Positions 11,935 through 19,078 of a stretch of 64,000 nt of DNA are shown here, in pieces. The DNA is from Pseudomonadota bacterium (GTDB lineage: Bacteria; Pseudomonadota; Gammaproteobacteria; Steroidobacterales; Steroidobacteraceae), in assembly GCA_021805865.1 (NCBI GenBank), contig JAJZDX010000002.1, forward strand, positions 62,001 through 126,000, written 5' to 3'. The first letter of the stretch is position 1; each line of letters starts with the position of its first letter. The notes under the pieces are model-generated. The model saw only the letters and a list, made by a program, of their open reading frames with translations, was not told where the DNA came from and did not search any database. The position numbers were made by a program, and so were the translations under genes.

Positions 11935-12471
11935 ATGGCGCTCAGAACGATTCTGGAGTTTCCCGATCCGCGGTTGCGTACCCGGGCGCAGCCGGTCACC
12001 GGTTTCAATTCCGACCTTCACCGGCTGATAGACGACATGCTCGAGACGATGTACGCCGCACCGGGCATCGGCCTTGCCGCCACCCAGGTGAACGTGCCTC
12101 AGCGGCTGATCGTCCTCGATGTCTCGGAGGAGCACGATCAGCCCCTCGTACTGATCAACCCGGAGATCCTCTCCAGCGAGGGGGACGCTGCCACCGAGGA
12201 AGGCTGTCTTTCGGTGCCCGGGGTCTTCGATGAGGTCCGGCGCGCCGCCCGCATTCGTGTGCGGGCGCAAGACCGCATCGGGCAGGCCTACGAGCGCGAC
12301 TGCGAGGGACTGCTGGCCGTGTGTGTTCAGCACGAGATGGATCACCTCGAGGGGAAGCTGTTCGTCGACTACCTCTCTGGACTGAAGCGCGAACGTATCC
12401 GCAAAAAGCTGGAAAAAGAGCGCAAGGCCCGGGCGGTGCGACCTGCCGCCGGTGCCCACCCCGCGCTTTGA
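11935..12471 (+). CDS. def: Peptide deformylase
   Basis: A 178-residue iron enzyme that removes the formyl group from the N-terminal Met of new proteins. All three motifs are visible: [18 protein letters not shown] (metal-ligand Cys) and [14 protein letters not shown] (two His ligands and catalytic Glu). The start [14 protein letters not shown] is standard. It heads the def-fmt-rsmB run, pairing removal of the formyl group with its addition by Fmt. Confidence 0.96.
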
Positions 12472-12484
12472 GCCGGGTGGTCCG

Positions 12485-13483
12485 GTGACCGGCCAGACCT
12501 CGCTCCGTGTCGCCTTCGCGGGAACACCAGAGTTTGCGCGGTCGGTGCTGCTCGAGCTGCTGCACTCTCCCCATGAGGTCGTTGGCGTATTGACTCAGCC
12601 CGACCGCCCCAAGGGGCGTGGCCAGCGCCTGAGTGCCTCGCCGGTGAAGCTGGCGGCACCGGCGCGAGTGCCCGTGGCCCAGCCGGCGGCGTTGAAGAGC
12701 CCCGCGGACTGGGCGCCGCTCATCGAATGGCGGCCGGATCTGCTGGTGGTCGTGGCCTACGGCCTTCTCTTGCCGCAGGCGGTGCTCGACCTGCCGTCGC
12801 TGGGCTGCCTCAACGTGCATGCCTCGCTCCTGCCCCGCTGGCGCGGTGCGGCCCCCATCGAGCGTGCCCTGCTCGCCGGCGATACCGAAACGGGCCTGAC
12901 CATCATGCGCATGGAGGCCGGGCTCGATACCGGCCCGATCCTGCTGCAATGCCCTGTCGCGATCGATTCGCGGGACACCGGAGGGAGCCTGCGCGACCGA
13001 CTCGCCGATCTGGCGGGGCCGCTGCTGCTTCAAGCCCTGGACGGCCTCGCGCGAGGCACATTGGTGGCGCGACCCCAGCCGGCCGAGGGAGTGACCTATG
13101 CCCGCAAGCTCGAGAAGCGCGATGCGCTGATCGACTGGCACCGTCCGGCGAAGGAGATCGAGCGGCAGATCCGCTCCCTGCAGCCCTGGGCCGTTGCCGA
13201 GACCACCCGGACCGATCCCGAGGACGGTGTCGAGGAGCGTCTGCTGGTGCATGCCGCCCGGCTGGGACCTCTGGAGGCGCCGCCGCAGCCGGATGCCAAG
13301 CCGGGCTGCATCCTCAAGACCCACGGCAGCCACAGTGAAGGCTTTATTCGGGTGCAGTGCGGCGGCGGGACTCTCGACCTGCTCACCTTGCAGCGGCCGG
13401 GCGGATCACGGCAGAACGCCGGCATGTTCGTGGGGGGTCGCCGTGGGCTTGCGCCTCGGATGATCCTGGGTCGACAGCATTGA
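12485..13483 (+). CDS. fmt: Methionyl-tRNA formyltransferase
   Basis: It formylates initiator Met-tRNA using 10-formyl-tetrahydrofolate. The catalytic region LNVHASLLPRWRGAAPIERALLAG and the later Asp in AGLDTGP are intact. The start is uncertain: GTG at 12485 begins VTGQTSLRVAFAGTPEF 14 bp after def, whereas an ATG at 12452 would overlap def and add 11 residues. GTG is preferred because the fold begins at LRVAFAGTPEFA. The stop overlaps the likely TTG start of rsmB, suggesting translational coupling. Confidence 0.92.
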   Translation: MTGQTSLRVAFAGTPEFARSVLLELLHSPHEVVGVLTQPDRPKGRGQRLSASPVKLAAPARVPVAQPAALKSPADWAPLIEWRPDLLVVVAYGLLLPQAVLDLPSLGCLNVHASLLPRWRGAAPIERALLAGDTETGLTIMRMEAGLDTGPILLQCPVAIDSRDTGGSLRDRLADLAGPLLLQALDGLARGTLVARPQPAEGVTYARKLEKRDALIDWHRPAKEIERQIRSLQPWAVAETTRTDPEDGVEERLLVHAARLGPLEAPPQPDAKPGCILKTHGSHSEGFIRVQCGGGTLDLLTLQRPGGSRQNAGMFVGGRRGLAPRMILGRQH

Positions 13484-14829
13484 CGCGCTCAGGTTCCGGT
13501 CAGGCCGCCACGGTACTCGCGCAAGCCTCGCGCGCCGTCGCCGCGATCCTTTCCGGTCAAACCGCCGACGAAGCGCTGTCGGCGTTCCAGGCGGGCCCGC
13601 ATCGCGCCGCGGTTCGCGCCATCACGTTGGGCACCGTGCGATGGTACCTGCGCCTGAAGCCGGCGGTGGAGAGCCTGTTGGCGCGGCCCCGGACCCTCCC
13701 GCGCGAGGTACGGGCCCTGCTCGCGGTGGCCGCCCACCAGCTCGAATACTCCCGCAACGCGCCGCAGCTGACAGTGCATGCGGCGGTGGACGCGGTGAAG
13801 ATCTTGGGTCACAAGCACGCTGGCGGCCTCACCAACGCCGTGCTGCGGAGACTGCTCGCGGAACGAAAGGACATCTTCGCGCAGGTGGACCGGGATCCGG
13901 CCCGCCGCACCGCTCATCCTCGTTGGCTGGCCGATGCGCTGTCGAGCGCATGGCCGCTGCACGGCTTGAGCTCCCTCGAAGCCGACAACGTTCACCCTCC
14001 CATGACACTGCGGGTCAATTGCATGCGGTGCACGCCCGCGGACTACCTCGGCGAGCTGGCCGCGGCGGGCACGGCTGGCCGGCTGGTCGAGTGGGGTGCG
14101 GAGTTCGCCGCCCCGCCCGCCGTGGTCCTGGAGCGGCCGGCACCCGTCGATGCGGTCCCGGGATTCCTCGAGGGACGGGTCTCGGTGCAGGACGCGGGCG
14201 CACAACTCGCCGCCCCCCTGCTCGATGTCCAGCCCGGCATGCGAGTGCTGGACGCCTGCGCCGCGCCCGGGGGTAAGGCGGCCCACCTGCTGGAGCTGAC
14301 CCGCGGGCAGGTGGACCTCTGGGCGCTCGACATCGATGCAGGGCGGCTCGAGCGGGTGCGCGAGAATCTCTCTCGTCTGGGGCTGCCGGCGCATGTTGTG
14401 GCGGCCGACGTGCGCGACCCGGGCACGTTCTGGGACGGCAGGCCCTTCGAGCGCATCCTCGTGGATGCGCCCTGCTCGGGCACGGGGGTCATCCGCAGGC
14501 ACCCGGATATCAAGCTGCTGAGGCGTCCCGAGGACATTCAGGCCTTTGCCGGCACCCAACTCGAGATCCTCGAAGCCGCATTCCAGATGCTGGCCGCGGG
14601 GGGACGGCTCGTGTACTCGACGTGCTCGGTGCTGCCGGCCGAGAACGAGGGGGTCGTGGAGCGGTTCCTCGCGCGCCACCCGCATGCCCGAGCCATTTCT
14701 CTCCCTGGGCGTCTCGCCCCCGGGGCGCTCGCCTGCCGGTGGGGAGTGCAGCTGCTGTGCGGGGGTGCGGCGCGGACCGATGGGTTCTATTATGCTTGTC
14801 TCGAAAAGACAACGTCCGGCACCATATAG
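13480..14829 (+). CDS. rsmB: 16S rRNA (cytosine-967-C5)-methyltransferase
   Basis: A two-domain RNA m5C methyltransferase of about 449 residues. The N-terminal NusB-like RNA-binding domain covers about residues 5-135. The SAM-dependent domain contains DACAAPGGKAAHLLE, VDAPCSGTGVIRRHPDIK (TC/PC motif) and YSTCSVLPAENEGVV (nucleophilic Cys). The TTG at 13480, overlapping the fmt stop, is the best start since no ATG or GTG fits closer to the NusB domain. DUF4390 follows in the same direction. Confidence 0.9.
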   Translation: MTRSGSGQAATVLAQASRAVAAILSGQTADEALSAFQAGPHRAAVRAITLGTVRWYLRLKPAVESLLARPRTLPREVRALLAVAAHQLEYSRNAPQLTVHAAVDAVKILGHKHAGGLTNAVLRRLLAERKDIFAQVDRDPARRTAHPRWLADALSSAWPLHGLSSLEADNVHPPMTLRVNCMRCTPADYLGELAAAGTAGRLVEWGAEFAAPPAVVLERPAPVDAVPGFLEGRVSVQDAGAQLAAPLLDVQPGMRVLDACAAPGGKAAHLLELTRGQVDLWALDIDAGRLERVRENLSRLGLPAHVVAADVRDPGTFWDGRPFERILVDAPCSGTGVIRRHPDIKLLRRPEDIQAFAGTQLEILEAAFQMLAAGGRLVYSTCSVLPAENEGVVERFLARHPHARAISLPGRLAPGALACRWGVQLLCGGAARTDGFYYACLEKTTSGTI

Positions 14830-14871
14830 CGTATGGAAGCAGGGGGCCTTACGCCATCTATCGTTGCATTC

Positions 14872-15501
14872 ATGCCACAAAAGTCCGCGCCGCCAAGCCC
14901 GATCTGCCGTCGGGGCAGCCGAAGACGCCTGAGCCGGTGGTGGGGGCTGCTGCTGGCCGCCAGCGCGCTGGGACTCGCGCCGACGACGCGGGTCCGGGCG
15001 AGCGCGCTCGATGGCGCGCTCGCGGTACGCTCCGCTTATGTCAATTTCAACCACGGCGTGATCGAGCTCAACGCGCGGATCACCTATCCGCTCAATCCCA
15101 TGATCCGCAAGGCGCTGGCGAACGGGGTGACGCTGTCTTTCGACATCGAGGCTGAGATCGATCGGGTCCGACGCTTCTGGTTCGACGCCGATGTCGTCGA
15201 TGTGACGCTGCAGCGGCAGCTTGCCTACCATGTGGTCACGAGGCGCTTCGTGGTCAGCAACGCACAAACAGGCGCCGAGCACAGTTTCACCACCGTGAAA
15301 AAGGCGCTCGACTATCTGGAGCAGGTCCGCAACTGGCCCATCCTGGTCGAGTCACAGCTTCAGGACCCCGGGTCGTACACCATCAGTGTCCGCGCCGGGG
15401 TGCGGCGCGGCGATCTGCCCGCATCGCTCCGGGCGCTGCTGTTCTGGACCGATGACTGGCAGCGGGAGAGCTCTTGGTACACATGGGCGCTGCCGGGGTG
15501 A
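14872..15501 (+). CDS. DUF4390 protein
   Basis: A 209-residue protein of the DUF4390 family, function not established. An N-terminal hydrophobic stretch (WWGLLLAASALGLAPTTRVRAS) suggests a signal peptide or anchor, placing the rest in the periplasm. The body has beta-rich repeats of aromatic and charged residues, ending in RALLFWTDDWQRESSWYTWALPG. The start at MPQKSAPP gives the signal-like segment; an in-frame ATG at 14833 would add 13 residues. It always seems to travel with rsmB and ntrY, and its 3' end overlaps the ntrY start, so it may act with that sensor. Confidence 0.75.
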   Translation: MPQKSAPPSPICRRGSRRRLSRWWGLLLAASALGLAPTTRVRASALDGALAVRSAYVNFNHGVIELNARITYPLNPMIRKALANGVTLSFDIEAEIDRVRRFWFDADVVDVTLQRQLAYHVVTRRFVVSNAQTGAEHSFTTVKKALDYLEQVRNWPILVESQLQDPGSYTISVRAGVRRGDLPASLRALLFWTDDWQRESSWYTWALPG

Positions 15502-17720
15502 GAGACACCGCCGCGGTGCGCCGGCGGATACGTGCCATCGCGGCCCTGGTGCTCTGGAGCGGCATCGGGCTCGGAGCGCTGCTGCTTCTGGCCAAAAGCG
15601 CGCAGAACTCCTCGGAGTTCAGCCGGCTGCAGCCGTGGATCGTGCTGTTCAACGTGATCGGCGTGTTGGCGCTGATCGTGATGCTCGCCCGGCGGCTGTG
15701 GCAGCTGGTGCGCGATTATCGCAATCACGTGCCCGGATCGCGCCTCACGGCGCGCACGGTGACGACCTTCGGGGCGCTGGTGGTGGCGCCGCTGCTCATC
15801 GTGTACTTCGCCTCGGTCGGCTTCCTGAACCGCGGCATCGACAGCTGGTTCCGGGTCGAGGTGAAACAGGGTCTGAAGGACGCGCTCGTGCTGTCGCGCT
15901 CGGCGCTCGATCTGCGCGTCCAGGACGAATCGCGTCGCGCTACGCTGCTCGCCCGCTCCCTGGCCGGGCACGGCGCGCTGAAGATTCAGGCGCGGCTCGA
16001 TCAGGCGCGCCGCTCGGACTCGGCCGAGGAGATCGTGGTGTACGGCGCCGACGAGCGCATTCTCGCGGCGAGCCTGCAAGATCCGCTGTCGGATGTCTCA
16101 CTCGCGCCGCCTGCCGACCTGGTGCGCCAGGTGAGCGAGCGGCGAACCTACGTCAATCTGGAGCCGCAGCCCGATGGGCGCTTCCTCATCCGTATCGGAG
16201 TCCCGCTCGATCAGTTTTCCGGTTCCGATGACCGCTACCTCATGGCCGTCTATCCGGTGCCTCCCCAGCTGTCGGCGCTGTCGGAGGTGGTCCAGCGAGC
16301 GTACTCGCAGTACGGCAATCTCACGACGCTGCGCGAGCCGCTGAAGTACAGCTTCATCCTGACGCTCACCCTGGTCTTGCTTCTCGCCATGCTGGCGGCG
16401 ATCCACGGGGCGATTCTCTCGGCGCAGCGCCTCGCACGGCCGGTGCAGGATCTGATCGCCGGCACGCGGGCGGTGGGCAAGGGCGATTTCGACACGCGTC
16501 TGGCTTTGCCCTCGCGCGACGAAATGGGCTTTCTGGTCCACTCTTTCAACGACATGACCAAGCGCCTGCGGCGGGCGCACGATGAGGCGACGCGCAGCCA
16601 GTTGGCGGTGGAGCGTGAGCGAGAGCGGCTGGCGATCATTCTCGCGCGGCTCTCCACGGGGGTGCTGGCGATCGATCGCAACCTGGTGGTGCGCATGGCC
16701 AATCAGGCGGCCGGCGCCATCCTCGGGCTCGATCTCTCCGCGGCCACCGGTCGGGCGCTGCCGGACCTCACGGCGGGCAACGAGCGGTTGGGTCAGTTCG
16801 TGGCGGCGCTCGCAGTGCGATTCGCGCGCGGCCGGCAGGAGTGGCGCGAGCAGATCGATCTCGGCAAGGCGGGGCGGATCCTCACCCTGATGTGCGCCTG
16901 TACGGCGCTGCCGGGAGAAAGCGGCGACATGGGCTATGTCATCGTTTTCGACGACATCACCGCGCTGCTGCAGGCGCAGCGGGATGCCGCCTGGGGGGAG
17001 GTCGCGCGGCGCCTGGCGCACGAGATCAAGAACCCCCTGACGCCGATCCGGCTGTCGGCCGAGCGGCTGCGCCGCCGGCTGCTCTCGACCCTGTCCCCCC
17101 CGGATGGGGAAATCCTCGAGCGCTCGACCCACACCATCGTGCAGCAGGTCGAGAGCATGCAGCAGATGGTGAACGCGTTCAGCGAATACGCGCGCGCGCC
17201 GGAGATGCATGTCAGCCGCTTCAGCCTCAACCAGCTGGTGACCGAAGTGGCCGACCTGTATCGCTCACAGGACCCGCGGGCGGGGATCGATCTCGATCTC
17301 GATGAGCGCCTCTCGGGCCTGGAGGCCGACCGCGGCCGGGTGCGCCAGATCCTCAATAATCTGGTGACCAACGCCCTCGAGGCGCTCGAGGGGTACGCCT
17401 CGCCCCGCCTGTCGATTTCCACCCGTCTCGAGGGAGACGCCCAAGGGGCGTTCGCCCTCGTTACAGTGTGTGACAATGGTCCCGGTTTCCAGCAGGATCT
17501 GCTCGGGCGGATCTTCGACCCCTACGTCACGAGCAAGCCCAGGGGCACGGGCCTGGGACTGGCGATCGTGAAAAAGATCGTCGAGGAGCACGGGGGACGG
17601 ATCGATGCCGACAACCGTCCCGAGGGCGGAGCCCGTATCCGGGTGGCGCTGCCGGTGGCGTTCGGCAGCCGGGGCGGGACGCGTGAGAGTCGAGAGTCAT
17701 TGCGGGGTGAGAAAGCATGA
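15483..17720 (+). CDS. ntrY: NtrY-type sensor histidine kinase
   Basis: A membrane sensor kinase of about 745 residues. Three hydrophobic segments in the first ~110 residues precede a periplasmic region. A transmembrane segment at about 295-320 is followed by HAMP (RLARPVQDLIAGTRAVGKGDF), PAS, and the HisKA/HATPase core. The phospho-acceptor His lies in ARRLAHEIKNPLTPIRLSAE. N, G1 and G2 boxes are intact (NNLVTNALEAL, VCDNGPGF, GTGLGLAIVKKI). ntrX starts 4 bp before its stop, a classic coupled pair. Nitrogen sensing is assumed from the name; the ligand here is unknown. Confidence 0.88.
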   Translation: MGAAGVRDTAAVRRRIRAIAALVLWSGIGLGALLLLAKSAQNSSEFSRLQPWIVLFNVIGVLALIVMLARRLWQLVRDYRNHVPGSRLTARTVTTFGALVVAPLLIVYFASVGFLNRGIDSWFRVEVKQGLKDALVLSRSALDLRVQDESRRATLLARSLAGHGALKIQARLDQARRSDSAEEIVVYGADERILAASLQDPLSDVSLAPPADLVRQVSERRTYVNLEPQPDGRFLIRIGVPLDQFSGSDDRYLMAVYPVPPQLSALSEVVQRAYSQYGNLTTLREPLKYSFILTLTLVLLLAMLAAIHGAILSAQRLARPVQDLIAGTRAVGKGDFDTRLALPSRDEMGFLVHSFNDMTKRLRRAHDEATRSQLAVERERERLAIILARLSTGVLAIDRNLVVRMANQAAGAILGLDLSAATGRALPDLTAGNERLGQFVAALAVRFARGRQEWREQIDLGKAGRILTLMCACTALPGESGDMGYVIVFDDITALLQAQRDAAWGEVARRLAHEIKNPLTPIRLSAERLRRRLLSTLSPPDGEILERSTHTIVQQVESMQQMVNAFSEYARAPEMHVSRFSLNQLVTEVADLYRSQDPRAGIDLDLDERLSGLEADRGRVRQILNNLVTNALEALEGYASPRLSISTRLEGDAQGAFALVTVCDNGPGFQQDLLGRIFDPYVTSKPRGTGLGLAIVKKIVEEHGGRIDADNRPEGGARIRVALPVAFGSRGGTRESRESLRGEKA

Positions 17721-19078
17721 GCGCTGCGCACATTCTGGTGGTCGACGACGAGGCCGATATCCGCGGCCTGCTGAAGGAGATCCTCTCGGAGGAGGGCTAC
17801 GCGGTGGACGTCGCGGCCAATGCGGCCCAGGCGCGCGCCTCGCGCGCGCGACAGACCCCGGACCTGGTTCTGCTCGACATCTGGATGCCGGATGTCGATG
17901 GCATCACGCTGCTGCGGGAATGGTCTTCCGCCACCTCGGAAGGCTGCCCGGTCGTGATGATGTCGGGGCACGGTACGGTGGAGACGGCCGTGGAGGCTAC
18001 GAGGCTCGGAGCGTTCGATTTCGTCGAGAAGCCCCTGTCCCTTGCCAAGCTCCTGCGCACCGTCGAGCGGGCGCTCGATGCCGGCCGCCGCCGGCGCCAA
18101 GGGGGCAAGCTGTTCGTACCGGGGGTCATGGGGCCTGCGGGCAAGAGCAAGCTCATGCAGCAGCTGCGCGCCGAGCTGCAGCAGATGGCCTCCCATGCCT
18201 CCCCGGTACTGCTCATCGGAGAGCCGGGCTCGGGCCGGGAGGTCTTCGCCCGCTACCTGCACGGCCGGGGGGCGCGGGCGGGCGGGCCGTTCGTCACCCT
18301 GGTCGCGAGCAGCCTGCGGGATGCGGATGCCGAGAGCCGCCTGTTCGGCTCAGAGGAGAGCGGCGTGCATCGCGCGGGCCTGCTGGAGCAGGCCGCGGAT
18401 GGGACGCTGTTCATTCAAGAGCTGGAGGATCTTCCGCCCGGTGCCCAGCGGCTGCTGGTCGGCACGCTGGAGTCGGGGCGCTTCACCCCGGTGGGGGGGC
18501 TCGAGCCGATCGAGCTGCGTGCGAGGCTCGTCTCCTCGGCGCTCCCCGGCATCGAGACCCGGGCCGGAGCGCAGTTGCGGCGCGATCTGCTGGGACATCT
18601 GAACACGCTCATCGCACGGGTGCCGCCGCTGCGTGATTACGCCGAGGACGTGCCGGATCTGCTCAAGCATCACGTCGATCGCATCGTCGACGCCGAAGGG
18701 CTGCCATTCAGGCATTTCAGCGTTGCGGCACAGAACCGGCTGCGCAACTACCCGTGGCCGGACAACGTGCGTGAGCTGAAAAACCTCGTGCATCGGCTGC
18801 TGATCCAGGGCGGTGGCGAGGAGATTGGTCTTGAGGAGGTCGAGCGCGAGCTCGCCGTGCAGGCGCCGCCGGGCGAGCCGCTGGTCAAGCAGGATCTGCT
18901 GGCGCTGCCGCTGCGCGAGGCGCGCGAGCAGTTCGAGCGCGCCTACCTGCAGCAGCAGCTGCTGCTGTGCAACGGCAAGGTGGGACAGCTCGCCAAGCGG
19001 GTCGGCATGGAGCGCACCCACCTGTACCGCAAGCTCCGCTCGCTGGGGCTGGATTTCCGCTCGATCGGCGAGGACTAG
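17717..19078 (+). CDS. ntrX: NtrX-like response regulator with degenerate AAA+ domain
   Basis: A 453-residue regulator: receiver domain with phosphoacceptor Asp54 in LVLLDIWMPDVDG, a central AAA+ domain of the NtrC family, and a C-terminal Fis-type HTH (KVGQLAKRVGMERTHLYRKLRSL). The AAA+ part is abnormal. The Walker A position reads GEPGSGREV near residue 168, with Arg where Lys is expected. The GAFTGA loop that contacts sigma-54 is replaced by ESGVHRAG. Walker B reads LFIQELEDLP, lacking the first Asp. It probably binds DNA under NtrY control without acting as an ATP-driven sigma-54 activator. Confidence 0.85.
   Translation: MSAAHILVVDDEADIRGLLKEILSEEGYAVDVAANAAQARASRARQTPDLVLLDIWMPDVDGITLLREWSSATSEGCPVVMMSGHGTVETAVEATRLGAFDFVEKPLSLAKLLRTVERALDAGRRRRQGGKLFVPGVMGPAGKSKLMQQLRAELQQMASHASPVLLIGEPGSGREVFARYLHGRGARAGGPFVTLVASSLRDADAESRLFGSEESGVHRAGLLEQAADGTLFIQELEDLPPGAQRLLVGTLESGRFTPVGGLEPIELRARLVSSALPGIETRAGAQLRRDLLGHLNTLIARVPPLRDYAEDVPDLLKHHVDRIVDAEGLPFRHFSVAAQNRLRNYPWPDNVRELKNLVHRLLIQGGGEEIGLEEVERELAVQAPPGEPLVKQDLLALPLREAREQFERAYLQQQLLLCNGKVGQLAKRVGMERTHLYRKLRSLGLDFRSIGED

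Follow-up and report, generated by a model that had tools for sequence, protein, structure and literature searches.

Results

An NtrX with a degenerate AAA+ domain

The window analysed here, a stretch of 64,000 nucleotides from a Steroidobacteraceae bacterium (contig JAJZDX010000002.1), carries the response regulator gene ntrX directly downstream of the sensor kinase gene ntrY, and ntrX, which starts with ATG, overlaps the stop-codon end of ntrY by four nucleotides (ATGA). The encoded protein is the NtrX of an NtrY-NtrX (PlrSR-like) two-component system, and the upstream gene order, rsmB-DUF4390-ntrY, matches the arrangement of three-component loci of the PlrP-PlrS-PlrR type. Its top curated equivalog model is NF051870 NtrX (E-value 8.3e-114), which is also matched by all 36 members of set A2; at 380.9 bits, the window protein misses the 600-bit NCBIfam cut-off for an NtrX equivalog. 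The best sequence match in the PDB is NtrX of Brucella (280 bits), in whose alignment GAFTGA is likewise missing.

The features of a DNA-binding response regulator are all in place: the phospho-acceptor D54, S83 and K105 of the receiver, a Response_reg match (4.8e-29) and a helix-turn-helix (HTH) of the Fis type (HTH_8, 1.6e-07), of which ERTHLYRKL is likely the recognition segment. The central domain still matches Sigma54_activat (6.4e-28), and the hallmarks of sigma-54 enhancer-binding proteins, that is GAFTGA, the Walker A lysine, the Walker B Asp-Glu pair and two arginine fingers, are not found in complete form. A preliminary description of this DNA had claimed that the Walker A lysine is arginine, that the first Walker B aspartate and the GAFTGA loop are gone, and that receiver and HTH are intact. 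The alignment confirms each of these points: the lysine position is R174, the aspartate position is Q234, with the second acid, E235, still there, and residues 205-229 contain no such loop (Table 1). The first arginine finger, R288, and the sensor-II residue R352 are kept, and the second finger position (in the motif YYRL) is H294. For the role names of the AAA+ motifs (arginine fingers, sensor II and the others) and the positions of the arginine fingers, we use what we take to be the common assignments.

Table 1. Features of ntrX and its neighbourhood in the window.
Feature	Position	Strand	Basis
ntrX, 453-aa response regulator: receiver, degenerate AAA+, lid, Fis-type HTH	17717..19078	+	ORF, Pfam, NCBIfam, PDB sequence match
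Receiver domain, residues 4-121; phospho-acceptor D54 at 17876-17878	17726..18079	+	Pfam Response_reg 4.8e-29, alignment
AAA+ core, residues 142-305; fold predicted, catalytic motifs degenerate	18140..18631	+	Pfam, alignment, predicted structure
Walker A / P-loop GEPGSGRE; Lys position is Arg174 (codon CGG, 18236-18238)	18218..18241	+	alignment
L1 region, residues 205-229, without GAFTGA; reads AESRLFGSEESGVHRAGLLEQAADG	18329..18403	+	alignment
Walker B acids in GTLFIQELED: Q234 (CAA at 18416; Asp lost), E235 (kept)	18416..18421	+	alignment
AAA lid, residues 306-386	18632..18874	+	Pfam, conservation counts
Fis-type HTH, residues 398-447	18908..19057	+	Pfam HTH_8 1.6e-07
ntrY (PlrS-like) sensor kinase; HAMP, PAS, HisKA (HEIKNP), HATPase_c	15474..17720	+	ORF, Pfam
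DUF4390 protein, PlrP homolog (third component in Bordetella)	14833..15501	+	PF14334, 1.1e-39
rsmB	13357..14829	+	PRK10901, 445.4 bits vs cut-off 375
fmt (presumed)	12452..13483	+	ORF; name from sequence and synteny

Loss of GAFTGA is general, erosion of the ATP site is lineage-specific

The window NtrX was used for a protein search of 60 family, 117 order, 274 class and 200 phylum genomes (overlapping samples). The matches that were read came from 320 loci, of which 318 initially looked distinct; 314 NtrX rows were aligned, the window included; four rows were left out as short, namely the cut fragments L123 and L125 and the AAA-less beta proteins L121 and L122. Removal of two further duplicates left 312 rows; the GAFTGA counts were made before this step (rest of class 187 rows, not 185). 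Judging from named loci and sequence, the order is probably Steroidobacterales, the class is Gammaproteobacteria in the GTDB sense, and the other classes would be mainly Alphaproteobacteria. The 28 rows of these other classes were called NtrX by best score alone. Other activators of the window's own genome contributed 13 rows, 12 of them distinct (two loci gave the same open reading frame, so that 12 of the 13 other activators were covered).

An ortholog above 500 bits and free of internal stops is present in 55 of the 60 family genomes. The gene can also be lost, because four genomes of the order sample (G016, G064, G116 and G161) have rpoN and no NtrX match at 1e-66. One of the fragments, L123 (genome G350), is cut by a contig end and adds the P-loop GPPGSAKR to the variants of this site.

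The loss of GAFTGA is general in NtrX and not special to the window protein. No exact GAFTGA occurs in the 314 NtrX rows, and a GAFTGA-like loop was seen in none of the 95 order rows, 187 rows from the rest of the class and four beta-like rows, in one of the 28 from other classes (GAFPGA), and in 11 of the 13 rows of own-genome activators. Loss of the P-loop lysine is more restricted, has occurred repeatedly on the trees and is nearly fixed in the order. Alignment of NtrX from the clade, as the preliminary description had proposed, places arginine at position 174 in all 36 family rows and in 93 of the 95 from the order; only L234, with a normal P-loop, and L215 (GEAGTDKE) have lysine in this column. 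The lysine is kept in 145/185 rows from the rest of the class, where 33 of the 40 other residues are arginine (many in related rows), and in all rows from other classes (28/28) and own-genome activators (13/13). Lysine, aspartate and the second acid (Glu or Asp) are kept together in 0/95 order rows, 58/185 from the rest of the class, 26/28 from other classes and 13/13 own-genome activators. The second arginine finger is rare throughout the class (14/95 order rows and 32/185 from the rest) and kept in 28/28 rows from other classes. Within the order, the Walker B aspartate is lost in 84 and the second arginine finger in 81 of the 95 rows, and the 11 rows that combine arginine with a retained aspartate (for example L060 and L066) fit a change of the lysine before that of the aspartate. 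D54 and K105 are present in all 312 distinct rows. The three losses that had been named in one breath are thus each real, but that of GAFTGA is shared far more widely than that of the ATP site, and it is the erosion of the ATP site that is specific to the lineage.

Among the activators of the window's own genome, L012 and L013 (C65 and C8) are closely related proteins with a Fis-type HTH, without GAFTGA and with the ATP site kept; they possibly form another sigma-54-independent pair. Their N-terminus is presumably AcoR-like. Three rows come from assemblies whose titles are probably wrong (L320, Bordetella parapertussis; L253, Klebsiella pneumoniae; L318, Rhodospirillales), because the first has an AAA-bearing beta-type NtrX and the other two have NtrX proteins 68% and 62% identical to that of the window. 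The label of L320 was not relied on.

Selection on the AAA core is relaxed and the fold is predicted to persist

In 11 hand-picked pairs, some sharing members, the AAA core has a dN/dS (omega) of 0.046-0.324, compared with 0.010-0.155 in the receiver. Among pairs with a receiver distance of 0.1-0.2, divergence of the AAA core is 0.450 for the order (357 pairs), 0.364 for the ATP-intact rest of the class (118 pairs) and 0.248 for other classes (22 pairs). The corresponding values are 0.064, 0.313 and 0.115 for the HTH, and 0.248, 0.356 and 0.308 for the lid. Positions conserved to at least 90%, counted in three groups that differ in breadth, number 24, 36 and 48 of 164 in the AAA core, 30, 18 and 18 of 81 in the lid, and 40, 17 and 32 of 50 in the HTH (order, ATP-intact rest of class and other classes, respectively). 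Selection on the core is therefore relaxed but still acting, with constraint shifted to the lid and HTH. Receiver and HTH are under strong constraint.

No internal stop was found among the order matches listed. An AlphaFold2 model built from 36 sequences has a mean pLDDT of 84.8, and 15 of 17 ten-residue blocks between residues 141 and 310 reach at least 90; the domain arrangement is unsure because pTM is 0.57. The AAA part of the model superimposes on FleQ (5exp) with a Z-score of 28.8 and a root-mean-square deviation (rmsd) of 2.2 over 242 residues. For the whole chain superimposed on Brucella NtrX (5m7p), the Z-score is 29.7 and the rmsd 17.5 over 426 residues, at 38% identity. Sequencing error, which the preliminary description had named as what might overturn it, and decay to a pseudogene are both practically ruled out, since Arg174 is lineage-wide (93/95 order rows) and omega of the AAA core is far below 1.

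NtrX persists in drafts where rpoN was not found

Six NtrX-positive drafts without detected rpoN were followed (G145, G339, G095, G200, G247 and G416). No match to the rpoN model above cut-off was obtained in G145 (same order, 99% complete), G339 (98%) or G095 (88%), the last having a single sub-cut-off match (E 0.06, 11 bits). Aside from weak partial matches of at most 26 bits, these three drafts have no PF00158 protein other than NtrX, and the P-loop of NtrX reads GEAGTARV (G145), GEPGCEFL (G339) and GEAGTDKE (G095). Within the order, rpoN was not found in the NtrX-positive drafts G095, G117 and G145.

Gene neighbourhood and AAA-less relatives

The combination of rsmB, DUF4390 and ntrY lies upstream of ntrX in 49 of the 64 named loci whose upstream sequence exceeds 4.5 kb and in 54 of all 80 named loci; none of the three was present in 6/80. 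The nearest named relatives of the window NtrX are from Steroidobacteraceae and Woeseiaceae assemblies, along with several without a family name. The gene that precedes rsmB in the window we take to be fmt from sequence and synteny; homologs precede rsmB in several named loci. Three genomes of the class sample (G247, G301 and G370) have two DUF4390 matches each, which may reflect a split gene or an additional PlrP-like one. According to the accessible part of a recent study, the order rsmB-plrP-plrS-plrR is found in Bordetella and in other beta- and gammaproteobacteria, and genetic evidence from Bordetella indicates that PlrP, the DUF4390 protein, acts as a third component controlling the phosphatase activity of the kinase (PMC13001219).

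Two genomes with DUF4390 and no NtrX match at 1e-66 encode, downstream of DUF4390, a protein consisting of receiver and HTH only. For these proteins, L121 (230 aa) and L122 (221 aa), no AAA family was listed up to an E-value of 10. In a tree of receiver and HTH they nest with the AAA-bearing, lysine-less beta proteins L313, L314 and L320 (SH-type support 96), and an 82-row mixture-model tree recovers the same nesting with support 97, or 98 with L319. The order forms a supported group (95) of 100 rows, including five from elsewhere in the class, one of which, L272, duplicates an order row. Changes of the P-loop lysine number 22 on the 316-row FastTree, which carries a long-branch warning; six of these changes are forced by well-supported branches. 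They number 12 on the 82-row tree, a chosen diverse subset from which nine rows had been barred beforehand (seven that were long in FastTree, and L160 and L223 by choice). One Fitch reading gives 13 losses and nine regains, so these numbers are estimates. The loop-less AAA domains of L313, L314 and L320 score higher with the short model PF14532 (Sigma54_activ_2) than with PF00158 (110-147 versus 33-60 bits). Such a preference may flag loop-less members; the window protein shows the reverse (68 versus 98 bits). In the beta lineage, the same erosion of the ATP site appears to have ended in deletion of the AAA domain, and NtrX of the order seems to be at a halfway stage towards these relatives.

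Discussion

We consider it probable that NtrX of the window is a phosphorylation-controlled, sigma-54-independent DNA-binding regulator acting at sigma-70-type promoters with a folded pseudo-ATPase at its centre. This reading draws directly on the states of the sequence motifs, their distribution, the constraint, the predicted fold and the presence of NtrX where rpoN was not found; the phosphorelay, the promoter class and the role of the pseudo-ATPase are what we infer beyond that. NtrY would phosphorylate D54, and the phosphorylated dimer or oligomer would bind DNA through the Fis-type HTH, and would control promoters of the sigma-70 type through ordinary contact or through occlusion. The AAA+ domain would survive as a folded pseudo-ATPase that probably provides dimer contacts and passes the state of the receiver on to lid and HTH. 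Hydrolysis of ATP is predicted to be lost. Nucleotide binding without hydrolysis is possible because the P-loop glycines and a nearly fixed arginine remain. Of the earlier proposal of an ATP-independent DNA-binding regulator we therefore retain the DNA-binding regulator that does not use sigma-54, and not the independence from ATP.

Several observations weigh against the reading as a sigma-54-independent pseudo-ATPase. The window genome itself carries rpoN, and rpoN is missing in only 3/94 order and 9/170 class NtrX-positive drafts, some of low completeness. In G200, G247 and G416 it is probably missing from the assembly, because other strong activators are present, and NtrX of G095 reaches no more than 24 bits with PF00158. 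A normal P-loop lysine is kept in one member of the order, L234. Finally, GCA-N9-TGC, the site of alphaproteobacterial NtrX, is not enriched upstream of mraZ: it occurs in 2/23 order members versus 1.97 expected under a first-order Markov model (23 of 30 fetched loci were used, seven being dropped because the start finder failed), and one of the two matches (G016) and one miss (G064) are in genomes without an NtrX match. These counts led us to reject the site as evidence of an envelope regulon in common.

The window genome also has 13 other strong Sigma54_activat matches (at least 146 bits), and with rpoN and other intact activators in the same genome NtrX might still activate sigma-54 promoters, perhaps by partnering an intact activator in mixed rings. 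We regard this as very improbable, given a protein without GAFTGA, P-loop lysine and Walker B aspartate that is retained in drafts without detected rpoN or another strong activator. Two further explanations are variants within sigma-54 independence and concern what the AAA+ domain does. The strongest rival, if on balance unlikely, is a nucleotide-gated switch, in which the arginine P-loop binds ATP or ADP without hydrolysis and binding sets the oligomeric state. The frame of the P-loop speaks for it (in the order, G168, E169 and G171 are present in 95/95 rows, G173 in 90/95 and R174 in 93/95), and the prevalence of arginine among the 40 non-lysine residues in the rest of the class suggests constraint on positive charge. 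For Brucella NtrX, also without GAFTGA, structures with either ATP or ADP are available (titles of 5m7n and 5m7p), and NtrC of Rhodobacter capsulatus is reported, in the accessible part of PMC10274813, to need ATP binding but not hydrolysis. A switch of this kind would nevertheless have to work in an order that has mostly lost the Walker B aspartate and the second arginine finger, and nucleotide binding is not essential in all NtrX, because the P-loop itself is broken in G145 and G339.

At the other extreme, the AAA+ domain could be a passive remnant heading for deletion and tolerated as a spacer, which we think less likely still. The AAA core does outpace the receiver in the order (0.450 versus 0.248 in other classes at the same receiver distance), the domain has been lost in beta relatives, and PlrR of Bordetella works without it, as far as the accessible text of PMC13001219 goes. 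A mere spacer fits poorly, however, with the low omega, the lack of internal stops in the order matches listed, a pLDDT of the AAA part mostly at or above 90, and a lid that is more conserved than in ATP-intact relatives. For the folded pseudo-ATPase that we favour, a more specific form is worth advancing tentatively: NtrX of the order may be a stable pseudo-ATPase transcription factor, in which the lysine-to-arginine change turned the P-loop into a fixed pocket that does not hydrolyse, may sense nucleotides and is under selection of its own, with constraint shifting to lid and HTH. The protein would then be an intermediate on a route from sigma-54 motor to two-domain sigma-70-type regulator through loss of GAFTGA, loss of the ATP site and deletion of the domain.

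The warning that the name nitrogen sigma-54 activator would mislead is well founded, as the protein scores 380.9 bits against the 600 of the equivalog and NtrX persists in genomes with neither a detected rpoN nor another strong activator. According to the accessible part of PMC7240162, control of nitrogen metabolism is no conserved function of NtrX. NtrX is still listed as a sigma-54 activator of nitrogen metabolism, for example in Acidithiobacillia (PMC12194929, accessible part); NtrX of Acidithiobacillus ferrivorans (L311) has no GAFTGA. In the literature that we searched, mostly without full texts and with subscription papers mostly outside, we noticed no description of a Walker-A-degenerate NtrX, an order-wide loss of the ATP site or the stepwise route. 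The present data set apart three easily confused losses and count each of them, and they add living forms that are intermediate between NtrX with and without the AAA domain. The role of a dead AAA+ domain in a transcription factor thereby becomes testable within a single series of orthologs, and sigma-54 independence has a natural test in the genomes without detected rpoN.

Canonical NtrC-type sigma-54 activators share with the window protein the domain order, the fold, the sensor-II arginine, the first arginine finger and the acid at E235, whereas GAFTGA, the Walker A lysine, the Walker B aspartate and the second arginine finger are theirs alone. Closer to the window is alphaproteobacterial NtrX (Brucella, 5m7n/5m7o/5m7p; Caulobacter), which has the same receiver-AAA-HTH architecture, an NtrY partner and no GAFTGA, the last reported for Caulobacter NtrX in the accessible part of PMC10274813. 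The Brucella protein differs in keeping the P-loop lysine and the Walker B Asp-Glu pair and was crystallised with ATP and ADP (PDB titles), and the alphaproteobacterial locus is ntrBC-ntrYX rather than rsmB-DUF4390-ntrYX. The same source describes NtrC of R. capsulatus, VspR of Vibrio and NtrC of Caulobacter as regulators without GAFTGA that act at sigma-70 promoters (PMC10274813); loss of the sigma-54 loop unites them with the window NtrX, for which sigma-70 promoters would be expected. From what is accessible there, NtrC of R. capsulatus depends on ATP binding and that of Caulobacter on its AAA residues, whereas NtrX has arginine for the P-loop lysine in nearly all members of the order. The gene order rsmB-DUF4390(plrP)-kinase-regulator and a related receiver and HTH are shared with PlrR of Bordetella and with beta NtrX. 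PlrR-type proteins have no AAA+ domain (PMC13001219, accessible part; L121 and L122 here), while the window protein keeps the AAA fold.

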